Positions 35,431 to 44,310 of a stretch of 64,000 nucleotides of DNA are shown here, piece by piece. The position numbers and the translations under genes are program-made. The DNA is from Halobacteriovoraceae bacterium (lineage in GTDB: Bacteria; Bdellovibrionota; Bacteriovoracia; Bacteriovoracales; Bacteriovoracaceae): NCBI GenBank assembly GCA_002712005.1, contig PASP01000004.1, positions 157,302 to 221,301 of the forward strand, in the 5' to 3' direction. Below the pieces are notes generated by a model that was not told the origin of the DNA, made no database searches, and saw only the letters and a program-made list of their open reading frames with translations. Numbering within the stretch: position 1 is the first letter of the stretch; every line of letters starts with the position of its first letter.

Positions 35431-36183
35431 CTAATAAGTAAGCCCTACCTGGATCACCCCACCTTTCTTAGCCGGAATAATAGCAAACTCGTAAGGAAGG
35501 TCTCTATCGTAGAGATATTTTAGCCCCCAGCCGTAAGCGGCTCCAATCCCCATCCCGACTAAGACATCATGGAGGTAGTGCCAGTCATCATTTATACGAC
35601 TCACACTTATGAAAGTTGCCGCTCCATAGGCAATAGAGCCATAGGCCCAACCATGGCGGGCAGCCACTACGGAGGCAAATGCGAAGGACATAGAAGAGTG
35701 GCCGGAAGGAAAGCTCGCCCTATCCTCTGGATAGCCAGGTCTTTTCTCCTGAATAAAAGTCTTTAAAGTGACCGTAGTAATTAAAGTATAAAGAGAAGCC
35801 TTAAACATATGCTCACTCGCTCTCATACTTTCTTTGTCCTCATTCATATATCCATTGTAGAAATGAGATAAGGTATAAATTCCATTGAGAAAGCCCCAAC
35901 CCATGACCTCTCCAACGTCCCCAAGCTCACCAAATGGTCTCGCGCTTTTGAAAGATTCTCTCTTATTATAAGTCCTTCTTCCCTTGTTCAAATAAACCAT
36001 TCCTGCGGCAACTAAGCTTCCCCCTAAGATATACTTAGCATCTGTTGTAAATGGTGCAGAAAATTCTGTTAACAGTCGCCGTCCAAAGCTTAAATCTTTA
36101 ACGTCTGATTCTTTAATATTATTTCCAAAAGTCGTTAAAGAAAAAATAAAGAGAAAAATAAATATAAATATTTTCTTCATCAT
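35431..36183 (-). CDS. PAP2-family phosphatase
   Basis: 250 residues, signal peptide or first helix at residues 3-20, then five or so helices. The three phosphatase motifs are intact: KTFIQEKRP, SFPSGHSSMSF and SRINDDWHYLHD, with catalytic His. Members dephosphorylate lipid phosphates such as undecaprenyl pyrophosphate, phosphatidic acid or lipid A on the periplasmic face. Its start overlaps the stop of the barrel gene by four bases, so the two are coupled. Substrate unknown. Confidence 0.88.
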   Translation of the reverse strand: MMKKIFIFIFLFIFSLTTFGNNIKESDVKDLSFGRRLLTEFSAPFTTDAKYILGGSLVAAGMVYLNKGRRTYNKRESFKSARPFGELGDVGEVMGWGFLNGIYTLSHFYNGYMNEDKESMRASEHMFKASLYTLITTVTLKTFIQEKRPGYPEDRASFPSGHSSMSFAFASVVAARHGWAYGSIAYGAATFISVSRINDDWHYLHDVLVGMGIGAAYGWGLKYLYDRDLPYEFAIIPAKKGGVIQVGLTY

Positions 36184-37169
36184 TTTATAAAACCTTCTAA
36201 CATATTAGTCATATCGAATTGATAAACTAGGGCAAAGAAGAAGCTTTTCTCTTCAATTTCATAATCTATTTCAAGGTTATTACTTCGATCCTCATTAGTT
36301 GCATTATATACTCTTGAACTTCTCCAATGACTAAATTGCAAAAGAGTCTCATTTGTTAAAGCATAATTAATTCTAAATCTTGCACCTATTAAATATCCTT
36401 TATCAGCGGTTTTTGTTAACTCGGGGGTGATAACATCATAATCTGAACTTAGAGCAAATTCGCCCCCCAACTGAAAGCTCCATTTTTTCAAAGGTCTCCA
36501 AATATAACCTAGTTCGAGACCAACTTCCGTATAGGCTTCTTTTACAGACTTTCTAGAGTCCCCAGGCTGATAGAAGTTTTTCTTACCGAAGTAATGTGAG
36601 TATAATCTCCCGTAAAGAGAATCTTCTTCATATTTATGAGAGAAACGATATTCCAAAAATATATCATGTCCTCCTCTGAAAATTTTCTTCGGTTGCTCTT
36701 CAATATCAAAAGGATTCATTTTGAAATATATCTGCTGATTCCAACTTTCTTTTTCACTTTCAAATTCATAAGCAACAACAATTTCAGGATCTAAAAAGCC
36801 ACTAGAGCTTGAATAATAATTAGGTTCGCCAGCTCTATTACTTAAAGGTCCAAATTTAAGTTCATATTCTCTGTCAATGTCATAATGGAGATCAATTCCT
36901 AACATTAATCTCTTCCACGGCACAATAGCTGTAGAGATTCGACATTCATTTGACTTATACTTTTGTTCATCAATCATTCCGAAGTTAGACTCATACTCGA
37001 CTTCTAAATGACCATTTCCACAACCCAATCTCTGGAATCCTTTAAATTCAGCTGGAATAAAGTTTGGATTATCGATCTTTAATTCAAAGGACCATACATT
37101 GCTTACACTTAGGCAAACAAAAATTGGAACAGACAATAAATATATAAAGTTCTTTTTTATTAATTTCAT
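36180..37169 (-). CDS. Predicted outer-membrane beta-barrel protein
   Basis: 329 residues from ATG 37169 (an upstream in-frame TTG at 37184 is less likely); signal peptide ends near SNVWSFEL. The rest is built of alternating aromatic/polar strands: LEVEYESNFG, ELGYIWRPLKKWSFQLGGEF, GARFRINYALTNETLLQFSH, SFFFALVYQFD. Likely an outer-membrane protein, coupled to the PAP2 gene. It is divergent from the DUF4266 gene with only 53 bases between starts. Base composition is more A/T-rich than flanking genes. No family recognised. Confidence 0.62.
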   Translation of the reverse strand: MKLIKKNFIYLLSVPIFVCLSVSNVWSFELKIDNPNFIPAEFKGFQRLGCGNGHLEVEYESNFGMIDEQKYKSNECRISTAIVPWKRLMLGIDLHYDIDREYELKFGPLSNRAGEPNYYSSSSGFLDPEIVVAYEFESEKESWNQQIYFKMNPFDIEEQPKKIFRGGHDIFLEYRFSHKYEEDSLYGRLYSHYFGKKNFYQPGDSRKSVKEAYTEVGLELGYIWRPLKKWSFQLGGEFALSSDYDVITPELTKTADKGYLIGARFRINYALTNETLLQFSHWRSSRVYNATNEDRSNNLEIDYEIEEKSFFFALVYQFDMTNMLEGFIK

Positions 37170-37222
37170 AAATACTAGTATCAAACTTAGATTTAGCTAA
37201 ATTCTACCACAAGGAAGGCATA

Positions 37223-37426
37223 ATGAAATTACTAGGAGTTCTTTTTATCATCTTTATCTCAGGATGTGCCAATGTTCATCAAATTGACCGAGGTGTTTTA
37301 TCAAAAAATATTATGCAACTAGATCCTCACCCTGAAGAGTCTGTATTTAGAAATGAAGTACACTCCTTTAGAGAGTCCTCCATTGGAGGTAACTCTGCGG
37401 TAGGAGGTGGTTGTGGATGTAACTAG
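37223..37426 (+). CDS. DUF4266 lipoprotein with C-terminal Gly-Cys-Gly-Cys-Asn
   Basis: 67 residues. FIISGC-type lipobox (IIFISGCA) places the acylated Cys at residue 15. The short mature chain contains a DPHPEESVFRNEVHSFRESS segment and ends GGNSAVGGGCGCN, the DUF4266 family signature. Two C-terminal cysteines separated by one Gly could bind metal, or be the thiol substrate of the thioredoxin-like protein encoded downstream (inference). AAGGAAGG precedes the ATG. The last codons hold the GGAGG ribosome site of the next gene, so the conserved tail and the next start are physically linked. Confidence 0.85.
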   Translation: MKLLGVLFIIFISGCANVHQIDRGVLSKNIMQLDPHPEESVFRNEVHSFRESSIGGNSAVGGGCGCN

Positions 37427-38588
37427 TTCAAAAAAATGGAGACTACTGTTTTTTACTTCTTTAAGTGCATTTTCCAATATTCAAAATACTTTTGCTGAAA
37501 TGCTTGAAAAAGGGAAAACTAAAATAACATCCGTATTTAATTTCTATCATCAAAATAGTGATAATGGTGGCCAAGTTATAGATAACTCAGGCAGAGAAGA
37601 AACTAATGTATTTGAACCTATGGTTTTCATTGAACATCAAATCACAGAAGACACTGCTTTAACTGGACAAATTACTTTTGATGCATGGACTGCTGCAAGT
37701 GATACTAAATTGGATTCGTACACTGGAGCAAGTAATGGTGATCCAATAAAAGGACAAACAAGAGTATCTGGTAATTTAGGAGCTAAGCAAGAAAAAGGAA
37801 AGTGGAGCTACGGAGCAAAACTTGGCTTTTCTTCTGAATACGATTATCAATCACTAAATGGTTCTTTAAATCTCTCAAGGTCTTTTGCGAATGACAATTT
37901 TGTCTTATCTCTCGGTATACAATACTATTCCGATCAACTTTCAGCTTTTCAAGATTTATCTAGCCCAGAAACAGCAAAAATTAAATCTGGCTTAAATCGA
38001 AATATATTTTCTACAAACCTTACAGCGAGCCAGCTCCTCTCTCCATATGAAATCATTCAGTTTGATTTAACATTTGCTAGATCTTCTGGATTCCTTGAAA
38101 GTACCGCCAACAGTGTAAATGTAAATGGTCAAAGATTTTTCGAAGAGCTTCCAGACTCGAGAAGTCGATATGCCCTTTCAACTAAATATGTAAGAGCTTT
38201 AACTCAAGACTCTGCACTTCATTTAAGTTATAGATATTATTTTGATCAATGGAATATTGACTCACATACTTCGCGAGTTGCTTATCTTAAAGAAATAAAT
38301 GATGATGAAGATTTTATTGAAGTCTCATTACGACATCACTTTCAAGAGAAAGCAAAGTACTATAAAGATAGTTTTACAATCCAAGAAAGTTTCATGACAA
38401 GTGACTCAGATATGAACCAATTTCATTCTTATGAATCTGGTATTTATTACAAAAAAAACTTAGAGGACTCTAGTTATTTTGGGGTCAAACTTGAAAATTT
38501 AACATGGAGCCACGGCTTAGTCTATTATCAAAGAAATACAGGTCTACGTTTAGGTTACTATCAATCTTCAATTAGTTTTGAATTTTAA
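37413..38588 (+). CDS. DUF3570 outer-membrane beta-barrel
   Basis: 391 residues from GTG 37413, chosen because GGAGG (37403-37407) lies five bases upstream; a GTG at 37407 is the alternative. Signal peptide ends near QNTFAEM. The body is a predicted beta-barrel ending YYQSSISFEF with terminal Phe. Near the N-terminus two adjacent segments, DAWTAAS (residues 90-96) and DSYTGAS (101-107), resemble the D-x-x-S/T-G/A-A-T/S consensus recognised by ApbE flavin transferases. DUF3570 genes are often seen beside DUF4266, TlpA and ApbE genes, as here. Biochemical function is not established to my knowledge. Confidence 0.85.
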   Translation: MDVTSSKKWRLLFFTSLSAFSNIQNTFAEMLEKGKTKITSVFNFYHQNSDNGGQVIDNSGREETNVFEPMVFIEHQITEDTALTGQITFDAWTAASDTKLDSYTGASNGDPIKGQTRVSGNLGAKQEKGKWSYGAKLGFSSEYDYQSLNGSLNLSRSFANDNFVLSLGIQYYSDQLSAFQDLSSPETAKIKSGLNRNIFSTNLTASQLLSPYEIIQFDLTFARSSGFLESTANSVNVNGQRFFEELPDSRSRYALSTKYVRALTQDSALHLSYRYYFDQWNIDSHTSRVAYLKEINDDEDFIEVSLRHHFQEKAKYYKDSFTIQESFMTSDSDMNQFHSYESGIYYKKNLEDSSYFGVKLENLTWSHGLVYYQRNTGLRLGYYQSSISFEF

Positions 38589-38596
38589 GGGACTAT

Positions 38597-39010
38597 ATGA
38601 AATTAATAATAATTCTTCTCTATTTATTATTTTCAAATGCAGAAGAAATGCCAACAATAAAAATTGCACAATATAAAAATAATAAGCCATTTATTTTAGA
38701 AAATATTAATAAAAAAATTGTCATTAATTTCTGGGCTACATGGTGCACTTCATGCATAAAAGAAATTGATGAACTTGAACGTTTAAAAAATAATAATCCA
38801 AACGTCGAATTTATTGCGATTAACGCAGGAGACTCTAAGAAGAAAATTAAAAAATTTTTAAAAAAGCATCCTTGGACATATAAGATACTCATGGATGTTG
38901 ATAAGTCCATCTCTAAAAGCTTAGGTGTGCTAAGTTTACCTCAGACATGGGTATTGGATAAGAAAAGAACAATTATATATAAAAACACAAAACCTCCCTC
39001 AAAAATCTAA
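38597..39010 (+). CDS. TlpA/ResA-like thioredoxin, exported
   Basis: 137 residues. A short N-terminal hydrophobic segment (residues 2-14) acts as signal peptide or anchor. The thioredoxin active site is NFWATWCTSCIKEIDEL, with CxxC near residues 50-53, and a cis-Pro in VLSLPQTWVLD. It would reduce or exchange disulfides in the periplasm; the CGC tail of the neighbouring lipoprotein is an obvious candidate partner. The gene is extremely A/T-rich (several 60-base rows have only 22-27 % G+C). It starts eight bases after the barrel gene and ends four bases before apbE. Confidence 0.85.
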   Translation: MKLIIILLYLLFSNAEEMPTIKIAQYKNNKPFILENINKKIVINFWATWCTSCIKEIDELERLKNNNPNVEFIAINAGDSKKKIKKFLKKHPWTYKILMDVDKSISKSLGVLSLPQTWVLDKKRTIIYKNTKPPSKI

Positions 39011-39014
39011 AATA

Positions 39015-39938
39015 GTGAAGATTACGGAACTAAAATTAGAGGCGATGGGCAGTTTTTTTGAATATAAAGCTTATGAAAAAAATTCTTTCTCTGAAGAGTA
39101 TATTTTAAATGCATTTAATGAAGCACATAAAGAAGTAAAACGAATAGAAAATAAGTTTACAGATTTCAAAGAAAGTCCATTTAATCAAATTAATGAAAAT
39201 GCTGGAATAAGAAAAACTATTGTCGATAAAGAGATAATGACACTCGTACTAAGATCTTTTGAAATATCAAAGATAAGCGAAGGAAGGTTTGACATTTCAT
39301 TCGCAAGTGTAGGCCATCGCTGGAGATATTATAAAAAGATAGGAATTCCTTTTCCTGATGATGAAAGGAATGAGCTTCAAAATTACATTAACTACAAAAA
39401 AGTAGAAGTCGATAAAACAAAAATGTCTATATTCCTTCCCCATCAAAAGATGAGAATTGGCTTAGGCGGTATTGGTAAGGGATATGCAGTTGATAGAGCA
39501 TATAATATTTTAAAAAAATTTAAACTTAACAATTTTTATATCAATGGGTCAGGAGATATCAAGGTCAGTTCTAATTTAAACGCACCAAGAAAGTGGAAAA
39601 TTGGTATAAAAAACCCTTTCAATCCTTCAGTCTATGCAGGCCTTATTCAAGTATCAAACCAAGCTGTATCGACATCAGGGAATTATAATCAATATAATCC
39701 TATTAATAAGGCTGACCATCACATTATAAGAATCCATAATCCCCAAAATAATATTATCTCAGCTACCGTAATTCATGAAAACTGTTTAGAGGCAGATTGT
39801 TACGGAACTATTTTGATGACAATGAATGTAAAAGATGCAATTACTTGGTTAAATAAGTATAAGCTATCCGGAACATTAATTGATCAATCAGGAGCTTCAT
39901 ATTTATCTAAATTAGCTCTTTCCCAATTTGGAAAGTAA
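39015..39938 (+). CDS. apbE: ApbE-family FAD:protein FMN transferase
   Basis: 307 residues from a GTG start. ApbE motifs: MGSFFEYKAY near residue 10, GRFDISFASVGHRW near 92, IGLGGIGKGYAVDRAY near 150 (the flavin/Mg-binding Gly-rich loop), FYINGSGDI, QAVSTSGNYNQY near 218 and a C-terminal DCYGTILMTM. The enzyme moves FMN from FAD to a Thr or Ser in target proteins. No signal peptide is visible, although most ApbE proteins are exported, so the true start or the export route is open. Fourth gene of the DUF4266 polycistron; A/T-rich like its neighbours. Confidence 0.87.
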   Translation: MKITELKLEAMGSFFEYKAYEKNSFSEEYILNAFNEAHKEVKRIENKFTDFKESPFNQINENAGIRKTIVDKEIMTLVLRSFEISKISEGRFDISFASVGHRWRYYKKIGIPFPDDERNELQNYINYKKVEVDKTKMSIFLPHQKMRIGLGGIGKGYAVDRAYNILKKFKLNNFYINGSGDIKVSSNLNAPRKWKIGIKNPFNPSVYAGLIQVSNQAVSTSGNYNQYNPINKADHHIIRIHNPQNNIISATVIHENCLEADCYGTILMTMNVKDAITWLNKYKLSGTLIDQSGASYLSKLALSQFGK

Positions 39939-39966
39939 TTCTCCTCGAATCATACAAAAAAATCAT

Positions 39967-41007
39967 ATGAATTTAATAATATATTTTTGCATCTTACTTT
40001 CGTTCTCAAATTCTCTTTTAGCAAAAGATAGTCAACGATTACCTCAAATCCATCGTCCCAAAAAAGATTCAGCATGGCTGCCCCTTACCTACTTGGCCAA
40101 TGGAACTTTTGATGTCATTCAAAACCCCTATTGGTTTTCTCAAAGAAATTACGGCAATAAAGTCGGCGTTTTCTGGGATAGAGTTAAAGATCCTCATCAC
40201 AATATTAAAAAGGATGGAGGATATAGAAAATTAATAGAGGATGAGTTTTTTAGCTCAAGAGTTCTACCCAATATAGGACTTCATGCTATCGGCGGTGCTT
40301 ACGATACTCTTTGGTTGCGCCAATATTTTGAATATTATAATGTTCCTGCTGCCGGATTTTTCTCCTTTCTCTTCACTTACGGAGCTCATGTTGGTAACGA
40401 AGCTCTAGAAACCACAAGTGATGAAATTACTTCTCACGATCACATCGCAGATATTTATATTTTTGATGTCGCCGCTTTCCTCATGTCTTATTCCCCAACA
40501 ATTATGAATTATCTCGTTAAAGATTTAGATATGAAGGCCTGGCATTTTAATCCTGTCTATGACCTCAATCACGATGATTTTTTCAATGCTGGACTTAACT
40601 ATATTTTTCGCCCCAAGGCCCTCAGCTTTGGAAATAATAAATTTAGACCCCTCTACTTCTTAGGAATGCAAACCATGCTTGGACTCTCCTATGACTACAG
40701 TCGAGAGAATACCCTTACCACGGCAGCTGGAATGAGTTTAACGAATCCCCTTAAACAAAAGGGACGATTTGTTGGCGCTTTCTTTCATGAATACCAGGGT
40801 GAATTAGAGGCCTCCCTTTTTCTTAATGGCTCTGAAGACTTTCGTTATCGCCTAAACTTATACGATACCTTTTTCTATCGCTTTATGAATGCCAATCAGT
40901 CTAAATCCTATCAAGTTGGACTTGTTCTTGGAGAGAAGAAAGGTTCTGATTACGCATTCGGAATAAATATTAATCTTCCGATTGGAATAGGCGCTATCTC
41001 CGATTAA
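39967..41007 (+). CDS. Predicted outer-membrane/periplasmic protein, unknown family
   Basis: 346 residues from ATG 39967; a signal peptide ends near SLLAKDS. The N-terminal half contains aromatic-rich and helical segments (NGTFDVIQNPYWFSQRNYG, DHIADIYIFDVAAFLMSY) and the C-terminal half alternates strand-like segments. It follows apbE by 28 bases on the same strand, but its G+C content returns to about 42 %, so it may be the resident gene next to an acquired block rather than part of it. The stop shares TTAA with the convergent kinase. Confidence 0.6.
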   Translation: MNLIIYFCILLSFSNSLLAKDSQRLPQIHRPKKDSAWLPLTYLANGTFDVIQNPYWFSQRNYGNKVGVFWDRVKDPHHNIKKDGGYRKLIEDEFFSSRVLPNIGLHAIGGAYDTLWLRQYFEYYNVPAAGFFSFLFTYGAHVGNEALETTSDEITSHDHIADIYIFDVAAFLMSYSPTIMNYLVKDLDMKAWHFNPVYDLNHDDFFNAGLNYIFRPKALSFGNNKFRPLYFLGMQTMLGLSYDYSRENTLTTAAGMSLTNPLKQKGRFVGAFFHEYQGELEASLFLNGSEDFRYRLNLYDTFFYRFMNANQSKSYQVGLVLGEKKGSDYAFGININLPIGIGAISD

Positions 41008-41684: not shown

Positions 41685-42383
41685 TTATAAACTTTTATTC
41701 TTTTTTGCCTCTTCAAAAGTCTTATTTTTCAGAGACTTACGCTCACTATAGCGATCAACAAGAAAAGAGGCATGGTCTCTTGTAAGATAGGTAAATCGCA
41801 TGAGCTCCTCCATAACATCAACCACACGTTCACGAAAAGAGGAGTCTTTCATCTCTCCACTTTCTTCAAACTCCTGATAAGCTTTGGCCACTGAAGATTG
41901 ATTAGGAATGGTGATCATTCTCATCCATCGCCCGAGAATTCTCATATTATTTACAGCGTTGAAACTTTGGCTTCCTCCGCTCACTTGTAGCAGAGCGAGG
42001 GTTCTTCCTTGGGTTGGTCTCACTGCTCCTATGCTTAGAGGAATCCAGTCAATTTGAGTCTTCATCAATCCAGACATATTCCCATGAAGCTCGGGCGAGC
42101 TCCACACTTGAGCTTCTGACCATAGACTTAAATTTCTTAGCTCTTGAACCTTAGGATGATCTACTGATTTATCATGATCAAAAAGAGGAAGTCCTGTAGG
42201 GTCAAAGAACTTCACTTCAGCACCCATAAACTCAAGGATTCTCCCCGCTTCTTCTGCAAGCAAGCGTGAATAAGATCTCTCTCTTAAAGATCCATAGAGA
42301 ACTAATACTCTTGGAGCATGATCTGAATTCGTTTTTTGACTCTCATCTCTCAAATTGAAAACTTCATTTTCTAAATACTTCAT
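41685..42383 (-). CDS. arsH: ArsH, NADPH-dependent FMN reductase
   Basis: 232 residues from ATG 42383, which overlaps the ACR3 stop (TAATG) and has GGAG six bases upstream. Flavodoxin-like ArsH features: [20 protein letters not shown] near residue 28, the [18 protein letters not shown] motif that binds FMN, and [16 protein letters not shown]. ArsH enzymes oxidise methylarsenite or reduce metals, giving resistance to organoarsenicals. Last gene of the merR-arsC-acr3-arsH operon. Confidence 0.92.
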
Positions 42384-43414
42384 TAATATCTCCAACGATT
42401 GGCCAGTTTAACCAAACTTAACATAATAGGAACTTCAATAAGAACCCCTACCACTGTCGCTAAAGCAGCTCCCGAATTTAACCCAAACAAAGCGATGGCC
42501 ACGGCAACAGCAAGTTCAAAAAAATTACTCGCCCCAATCATTGAGCCAGGAGAAAGAATGCAGTGAGGGAACTTCATTTTCCTTCCGATGGCCCATGTTA
42601 TAAAGAAAATAAAATAGGTCTGTAGGGTAAGAGGAATAGCTATTAGAAGAATATGAAAGGGATTCTGAATAATCGTCTCTCCTTGAAAAGAAAAAAGTAA
42701 AATCAATGTTGAGAGCAACGCCAAAATGGATACAGGTTTTAACTTGGGAAGAAAGACTTCTTCAAACCATAGTCGACCTTTTGCTCCTATAATCAGACGA
42801 TTGACAACAAAGCCCGCAACGAGAGGAAAAATAACAAACACGACGACTGAGGTTAAAAGCGTATTCATGGGAATCGTGATTTGAGTGATACCTAAGAGAA
42901 GTTTTACAATTGGAATAAAGGCTACCAAGAGGATGAGATCATTTACAGATACTTGAACGAGAGTGTACTCGGGATCACCCTTGGTTAAATACGACCAGAC
43001 AAAAACCATGGCCGTACAGGGAGCTGCCCCAAGAAGAATGGCTCCGGCAATATACTGAGAAGCTATTTCAGGGTTGAGAAAGGAAGCAAAAACTTTATCA
43101 AAGAAAATCCAAGCAAAGAACGCCATGGTAAAAGGCTTAATTAACCAATTCACAATAACCGTTAAAACTAATCCTGAAGGATTCTTTCCGACTTTTCCAA
43201 TGGAGGTAAAATCAATCTGAACCATCATGGGAAAAATCATAAACCAAACCAAAATGGCGACAGGAAGATTAACGGTTGCAATAGACATTGTACTTAGAGG
43301 AAGGACACTCTCAGAGAAAAAATGTCCAATGAGAACACCGACCCCAATACAAAGGGCAACCCATAGGGAAAGATATCTTTCAAAAAATCCAATTTGTTCT
43401 TGTTTCTCGTTCAT
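42383..43414 (-). CDS. acr3: Arsenite efflux permease, ACR3 family
   Basis: 343 residues, ten predicted helices. The helix-4 motif [13 protein letters not shown] contains the Cys essential in ACR3 proteins, and [16 protein letters not shown] and [19 protein letters not shown] are family-typical. It exports arsenite produced by ArsC. AGGAT lies upstream of the ATG. Between arsC and arsH in one operon. Confidence 0.94.
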
Positions 43415-43459
43415 TGTGTTATCCTGGTGTTAGCTGATCTTCACTGATCTTCACTAATT

Positions 43460-43879
43460 TTAAGAGAGTTCTTCCCTTTTCAATAAGGTTTCGTGAATTT
43501 CATCTCTTACTCTTCTATATACTTTTATAATTTCTTCTTCGTCCGTAAAATTCTTCGTCAATCGTGGAGGATCATCAAAACCTATATGAATAGTCTTTCC
43601 ACCGGGAAAGAAGGGACAATTCTCATGGGCATCGGAACACACCGTAAAGATATAATCCATGTGAATCCTTTCAGGTAGCTCGTCAGTGGTCTTCGAATAA
43701 TGATCACTCATATCGATTCCTACTTCTTGCATAACTTTAACTGCGTAAGGATTCATTCCATGTTTCATAGTACATGCACTAAATATTTGGTAATTATGTC
43801 CATAGAGTTTCTTTGCCCAAGCTTCGGCCATTTGTGATCGACATGAGTTTCCCGTACAAAGAAAGAGTATTGTTTTCAT
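43460..43879 (-). CDS. arsC: Arsenate reductase, thioredoxin-coupled ArsC
   Basis: 139 residues, low-molecular-weight tyrosine phosphatase fold. The P-loop CTGNSCRSQ (residues 8-16) has the nucleophilic Cys and Arg; the two further redox Cys sit in TVCSDAHENCPFF, as in the Staphylococcus pI258 type that uses thioredoxin. It reduces arsenate to arsenite in the cytoplasm. Start overlaps the regulator stop by four bases. Confidence 0.94.
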   Translation of the reverse strand: MKTILFLCTGNSCRSQMAEAWAKKLYGHNYQIFSACTMKHGMNPYAVKVMQEVGIDMSDHYSKTTDELPERIHMDYIFTVCSDAHENCPFFPGGKTIHIGFDDPPRLTKNFTDEEEIIKVYRRVRDEIHETLLKREELS

Positions 43880-44310
43880 TTTTCACTTACCTTTATTTTT
43901 TCTACATCACATTTTTCTTCAAAGAAGCAATCAAGAATTGGGCATTCAGACAAAGGAATCGTTTTATCTTCACAACAATTTGCAAGGGATGAAAGGGAGT
44001 CTTTCATACGCTTGAGATCCTTCATTTTTTCATCAATTTCTCTTATCTTATGTTCTGTTTTAAGAAGAATATCTTTGCATTGAGAGGTTGATTGAACACT
44101 GAGTTCAAGAAGTTCCTTCGTTTCACTAAGTGTAAACCCAAGTTGCTGAGACCTCTTTATAAACCTAATCTTTGTCACAAGATCTGAGGAATAATAACGA
44201 AATCCTCCAACCTTCTCAGGTTGAATAAGAAGTCCCTTTCTTTCATAAAATCTAATGGTCTCCACCCCTACTTCAGCGGCTTTGGCCAATTTTCCAATAG
44301 TTAGTCTCAT
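43876..44310 (-). CDS. MerR-family regulator of the arsenic operon
   Basis: 144 residues. N-terminal winged helix with TIGKLAKAAEVGVETIRFYE, then a dimerisation coiled coil. Cysteines at SQCKD, at NCCEDK and at SECPIL reproduce the three-Cys spacing pattern of MerR-type metal sensors (first Cys at the end of the coiled coil, then a pair about nine or ten residues apart). An extra CC is present. It is first in the operon with arsC, acr3 and arsH; arsenic operons normally use ArsR. Inducer could be As(III), Hg(II) or another thiophilic ion. Confidence 0.88.
   Translation of the reverse strand: MRLTIGKLAKAAEVGVETIRFYERKGLLIQPEKVGGFRYYSSDLVTKIRFIKRSQQLGFTLSETKELLELSVQSTSQCKDILLKTEHKIREIDEKMKDLKRMKDSLSSLANCCEDKTIPLSECPILDCFFEEKCDVEKIKVSEK

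Follow-up and report, generated by a model that had tools for sequence, protein, structure and literature searches.

The covalent attachment of FMN to exported proteins by ApbE is generally taken to occur in the periplasm, after export. DUF3570 proteins were identified as ApbE substrates by Méheust et al. (2021, eLife 10:e66878; PMC8238504), who found that the DUF3570 protein of Chlorobium luteolum, when produced in E. coli together with its cognate ApbE, was flavinylated at two [S/T]GA[S/T] sites and that mutation of both was needed to abolish flavinylation. The same paper lists hundreds of clusters of ApbE, DUF3570, a thioredoxin-like protein and a DUF4266 protein with a C-terminal CxC; DsbD clusters holding DUF3570 number 227, four-gene clusters without DsbD number 316, and the VIT1 iron transporter is present in 25 DUF3570 clusters. 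Beyond this study, our search of the open literature found nothing on DUF3570 or DUF4266. A signal-less ApbE is known from Klebsiella pneumoniae, where it modifies a fumarate reductase that stays in the cytosol.

Here we compare with these systems a four-gene operon in a 64,000-nucleotide stretch of DNA from a Halobacteriovoraceae bacterium (the window; contig PASP01000004.1, positions 157,302 to 221,301). The operon belongs to a system that, together with DUF3570 flavinylation, has been in print since 2021 (PMC8238504), so the earlier note on this DNA, which had put it forward as a candidate undescribed system, does not hold on that point. The operon shares with the published system an ApbE, a DUF3570 protein with two motifs, a thioredoxin-like protein and a DUF4266 protein ending in CxC, and like the 316 published clusters it has no adjacent DsbD. 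It differs in that its first motif reads TAAS, whereas the second (TGAS) fits the published [S/T]GA[S/T] pattern, and in that its ApbE has no signal peptide, a point on which the accessible part of the paper carries no discussion. The barrel and thiol arm of the earlier note's reading stand; the predicted cytosolic location of the ApbE had escaped it. Judged by our search of the open literature, a signal-less ApbE beside DUF3570 is a new point and it is the part worth following, the earlier note's interpretation being largely right but already published (PMC8238504). We propose, with a probability of roughly 0.6, that the barrel encoded by the operon is an outer-membrane protein carrying covalent FMN, attached to it by a cytosolic ApbE. 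Taken alone, the assignment of DUF3570 as a flavinylation target is highly probable.

Gene organisation

The DUF4266, DUF3570, TlpA-like and ApbE genes form a tightly packed unit in the ORF list and Pfam matches (Table 1). The packing was as the earlier note had described it, with each ORF where it had been placed and a Pfam match for each of the four. The DUF4266 and DUF3570 genes overlap by 14 bases, and the later gaps are of 8 bases (DUF3570-TlpA) and 4 bases (TlpA-ApbE). Besides GTG 37413, GTG 37407 is a possible start of the DUF3570 gene; the former is favoured because of the AGGAGG at 37402-37407. Between 37402 and 37426 the lipoprotein codons for GGGCGCN double as the Shine-Dalgarno sequence and translation start of the barrel gene, and this overlap recurs in the window's family, the barrel ORFs beginning MVVDV, MVVVDV or MAVDV.

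Table 1. Features of the operon, in positions of the window
Feature	Position	Strand	Remarks
DUF4266 small lipoprotein	37223..37426	+	PF14086 E 6.6e-16; lipobox ISGC-A; C-terminal GGGCGCN
DUF3570 outer-membrane barrel protein, predicted FMN carrier	37413..38588	+	PF12094 E 1.1e-33, score 117 (cut-off 25 bits)
Flavinylation motif 1, DAWTAAS, predicted FMN acceptor the last Ser	37680..37700	+	residues 90-96 from GTG 37413
Flavinylation motif 2, DSYTGAS, predicted FMN acceptor the last Ser	37713..37733	+	residues 101-107 from GTG 37413
TlpA/ResA-like exported thioredoxin, WCTSC	38597..39010	+	AhpC-TSA/Redoxin PF00578/PF08534 E about 6e-19
ApbE FAD:protein FMN transferase, predicted cytosolic	39015..39938	+	PF02424 E 2.9e-56, 191 bits

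The barrel protein and its flavinylation motifs

Both motifs that had been pointed out in the barrel were present at the residues claimed, and two D..[ST][GA][AS][ST] motifs are improbable in a protein of its composition (P = 0.00015, 20,000 shuffles). Their conservation among DUF3570 homologues had been proposed as a check; in the alignment, D..[TS]..S of motif 1 was kept in 42 of 42 full-length homologues, and its Asp and Ser (D92 and S98, numbered from GTG 37407) are two of the 14 invariant columns in a 27-sequence alignment that takes in Vibrio and Hymenobacter. Motif 2, as D..[ST]G[AEQT]S, was found in 28 of 29 loci of the window's family, and [TS]..S alone is kept in distant DUF3570 types. 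A point against flavinylation of the window barrel is that motif 1 has Ala in place of Gly; in a Klebsiella model, a G-to-A change lowered flavinylation to about half.

The C-terminal residue is Phe in 44 of 45 homologues, and the segment lengths of 42 sequences give a pattern in which short turns alternate with long variable loops. The beta-barrel assignment is supported by this sequence pattern rather than by a confident structure model, and a search of solved structures by sequence found none resembling DUF3570. AlphaFold2 models built from two-sequence alignments reached pLDDT values of 32 and 27, which is too poor to serve as evidence alone, and they were therefore used for rough strand positions only. 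On these rough positions both motifs lie between strands 3 and 4, in a segment whose length ranges from 16 to 40 residues across the 42 sequences and which is flanked by turns of 5-6 and 2-6 residues.

In outer-membrane barrels the long variable loops point outside. Judged by the loop-length pattern, the motif loop would be of the kind that is normally extracellular, and since it is long and variable the acceptor Ser would be expected to face outwards or to reach into the lumen from the outside. After assembly it would then be inaccessible to a periplasmic enzyme, and FMN would have to be attached before export or before folding. Such an outer-side position of the motifs agrees with a cytosolic ApbE.

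Distribution in the phylum and the target of ApbE

Among 369 genomes of the phylum, DUF3570 was found in 43 and DUF4266 in 44, with both in 42 (Fisher 1e-51), and ApbE was present in 43 of the 43 DUF3570 genomes; the co-occurrence that the earlier note had suggested examining was thus borne out. The one DUF3570 genome without DUF4266 (G034) lacks it because the contig ends there; in G056 the DUF4266 gene lies at a contig end and in G314 there is a sub-threshold match with a stop. In the window's family (31 loci) the genes for the barrel, TlpA and ApbE lie side by side, the last two in varying order, and the DUF4266 gene comes before that of the barrel at each locus where the contig is long enough and the gene was called. 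Evidence beyond the phylum comes from Vibrio and Hymenobacter plasmid or chromid records, and a scan of IMG/VR gave no match.

One genus (g4) offers a clean natural system, since its species have either the operon with a sole ApbE or neither. Three of its genomes (G004, G005 and G007) carry the operon, and these encode no ApbE other than that of the operon and no FMN_bind protein. The other 11 genomes have no DUF3570; 10 are without any ApbE and one (G011) has a weak match below the cut-off (E 5e-4). Outside this genus, G039 and G040 likewise have the operon ApbE as their sole ApbE and no FMN_bind protein. No DUF2271 protein was found in any of these five single-ApbE genomes, and no NqrB/RnfD-type protein in four of them, G007 having a weak NqrB/RnfD-like match. 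The barrel is the only evident ApbE substrate in G004, G005, G007, G039 and G040. Where the earlier note had left it between the barrel and another partner, the experiment on the homologue, the invariant motif 1 and the strict co-occurrence mark the barrel as a conserved type of ApbE substrate.

The operon ApbE

His236 and Asp261 of the window ApbE match the catalytic His273 and Asp301 of FmnB; among homologues the His is kept in 35 of 35 and the Asp in 33 of 35. As judged from hydrophobicity, lipobox and inspection by eye, a signal peptide is absent from the operon ApbE at all 31 family loci, in G207 (C462), in G251 and on the Vibrio chromid, and these signal-less proteins start close to a conserved M-G-type start. 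Upstream of the window ApbE there is neither an in-frame start nor a hydrophobic stretch, and no leader lies upstream in frame in the family loci, G207, G251 or Vibrio. The 27 Nqr-type ApbEs sampled from the phylum each carry a hydrophobic leader, which in most of them includes a lipobox. The window's own genome encodes a second ApbE (C19:7757-8602), which is the Nqr one, near NqrC (C19:11302) and NqrB (C19:12050); it belongs to the same FMN transferase family as the operon ApbE but differs in its hydrophobic leader, in falling in another well-supported clade and in lying in an Nqr gene cluster.

Since the operon ApbE is without an export signal, the barrel probably receives its flavin within the cell, ahead of export. 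Exported ApbEs are found in Hymenobacter operons and with a second type of DUF3570 locus in the phylum, where the gene lies mostly about 2-9 kb off on the same contig (the start of the L055 ApbE is cut off by the contig end); therefore cytosolic attachment is not required by the DUF3570 family as a whole. In a maximum-likelihood tree the 31 family ApbEs group together (100/99) next to the exported f8/Hymenobacter set, and those of Vibrio, G251 and G207 form a separate clade (99/92) in which the Vibrio branch is long. ApbEs that are signal-less and encoded beside DUF3570 thus belong to two separate clades.

The lipoprotein, the thioredoxin and DsbD

Across the 43 homologous loci the GGCGCN tail of DUF4266 was found in 43, its lipobox, with no Asp at +2, in 43, and WCxxC of TlpA in 43. 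The proposal that a thiol arm belongs with the barrel is thus upheld by the TlpA CxxC and the invariant CGC tail of the lipoprotein. A DsbD gene was not found beside the operon in the window; one lies elsewhere in the genome (C3:91617). In Vibrio and G251 a full DsbD gene adjoins the operon, the order on the Vibrio chromid (L080) being TlpA-DUF4266-DUF3570-ApbE-DsbD. Since relatives without the operon also have DsbD, it is a general donor and its presence is no test of an electron path. Periplasmic thiol reduction of the DsbD-TlpA/CcmG type likewise combines a TlpA-like CxxC protein with a DsbD in the genome; unlike there, the window TlpA is dedicated to a flavin barrel operon, and the electron transfer to the CGC lipoprotein or to flavin is putative.

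Proposed pathway and alternatives

In the pathway that we propose, the signal-less ApbE would move FMN from cytosolic FAD onto the unfolded DUF3570 precursor, at the Ser of DAWTAAS and/or DSYTGAS. The flavinylated precursor would then be exported and fold into the outer membrane, with the FMN loop on the long-loop side. Judging from gene content, electrons may pass from DsbD to the TlpA-like protein, which would reduce the CGC pair in the lipoprotein (DUF4266), and from there to the barrel FMN and an outer acceptor. If a signal-less ApbE is indeed dedicated to the barrel, it would follow that a flavin bound covalently in the cytosol is able to withstand both export and barrel assembly. This would also account for the supply of cofactor to a site that lies on a barrel's outer side. 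The fuller version, in which FMN is loaded before Sec, crosses SecYEG and BAM while attached and ends in a surface-side loop beyond the reach of periplasmic enzymes, with the arrangement recurrent in two ApbE clades, has in our view a little less than an even chance. The electron path from DsbD through TlpA and the CGC lipoprotein to FMN is more tentative still. A search of the open literature on Sec export of covalently modified proteins found nothing.

The same flavinylated barrel could also be obtained if FMN were attached in the periplasm, either because the operon ApbE is exported non-classically or because an exported Nqr-type ApbE acts on the barrel. ApbE is usually periplasmic (reviewed in PMC12052999), and at the related Hymenobacter and f8-type loci the enzyme is an exported one. 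However, the signal-less ApbE is the sole one in the five genomes named above, and the sequence upstream of ApbE offers no leader-like in-frame stretch; we therefore regard periplasmic attachment as unlikely. Alternatively, the operon ApbE could flavinylate a cytosolic protein, its link to the barrel then reflecting shared regulation only; this has a precedent in the known signal-less ApbEs, which act on cytosolic fumarate reductases (Klebsiella; PMC12052999). The window ApbE differs from these in that the only substrate evident for it is a protein exported to the outer membrane. Against a cytosolic target stand the joint presence or absence of ApbE and DUF3570 in genus g4, the lack of FMN_bind and DUF2271 proteins in its operon-bearing genomes, the invariant barrel motif and the flavinylation of a homologous barrel on coexpression in E. 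coli (PMC8238504), which together make it very improbable.

A further explanation concerns purpose and is compatible with cytosolic flavinylation of the barrel. In it, Cu, Fe or another metal would be bound by the CGC lipoprotein, which TlpA would keep reduced, and at the outer membrane the flavin barrel would reduce this metal or hand it on. The invariant CGC tail and the VIT1 genes of the published clusters (PMC8238504) speak for such a device, but none of the 31 family loci has a metal transporter as a conserved neighbour, and the arsenic genes downstream of the window operon lie outside the unit, on the opposite strand. We consider a metal device distinctly unlikely, though less so than a cytosolic target.

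Other features of the DUF3570 loci

The second DUF3570 type in the phylum has the gene order DUF3570-TlpA-DUF4266 and the motif D[IVL][LV]TS[AS]S. Its loci (L050, L051, L054, L055, L058, L059 and similar ones) hold a conserved block of exported unknown proteins, among them small proteins with GYQNCA-like N-termini, a weak PSD2/DUF1585 match and a Tat-type protein with RRDFLSTG. On the plasmid of Hymenobacter sp. DG25B (L082:4935-6187) the annotation divides DUF3570 between two neighbouring genes, suggesting a split or a frameshift, and the DUF4266 tail of H. volaticus (L081) is without CGC at its end, possibly also through a frameshift.

Two neighbours of the window operon, the upstream gene at 36180-37184 and the downstream gene at 39928/39967-41007, were considered as operon members and rejected, as neither recurs at other loci. 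The latter (39928-41007, +) directly follows apbE on the same strand and encodes an exported protein of about 346 residues with a likely start at ATG 39967; its product has no Pfam or NCBIfam match and is absent from the other 44 DUF3570 loci. Further downstream, at 41685-44310 (-), lies an arsenic resistance cluster with a MerR-like regulator, a thioredoxin-type ArsC, an ACR3 efflux pump and ArsH. A link between arsenic and the operon was rejected, since this is a separate cluster on the opposite strand; its regulator is MerR-like instead of the usual ArsR.
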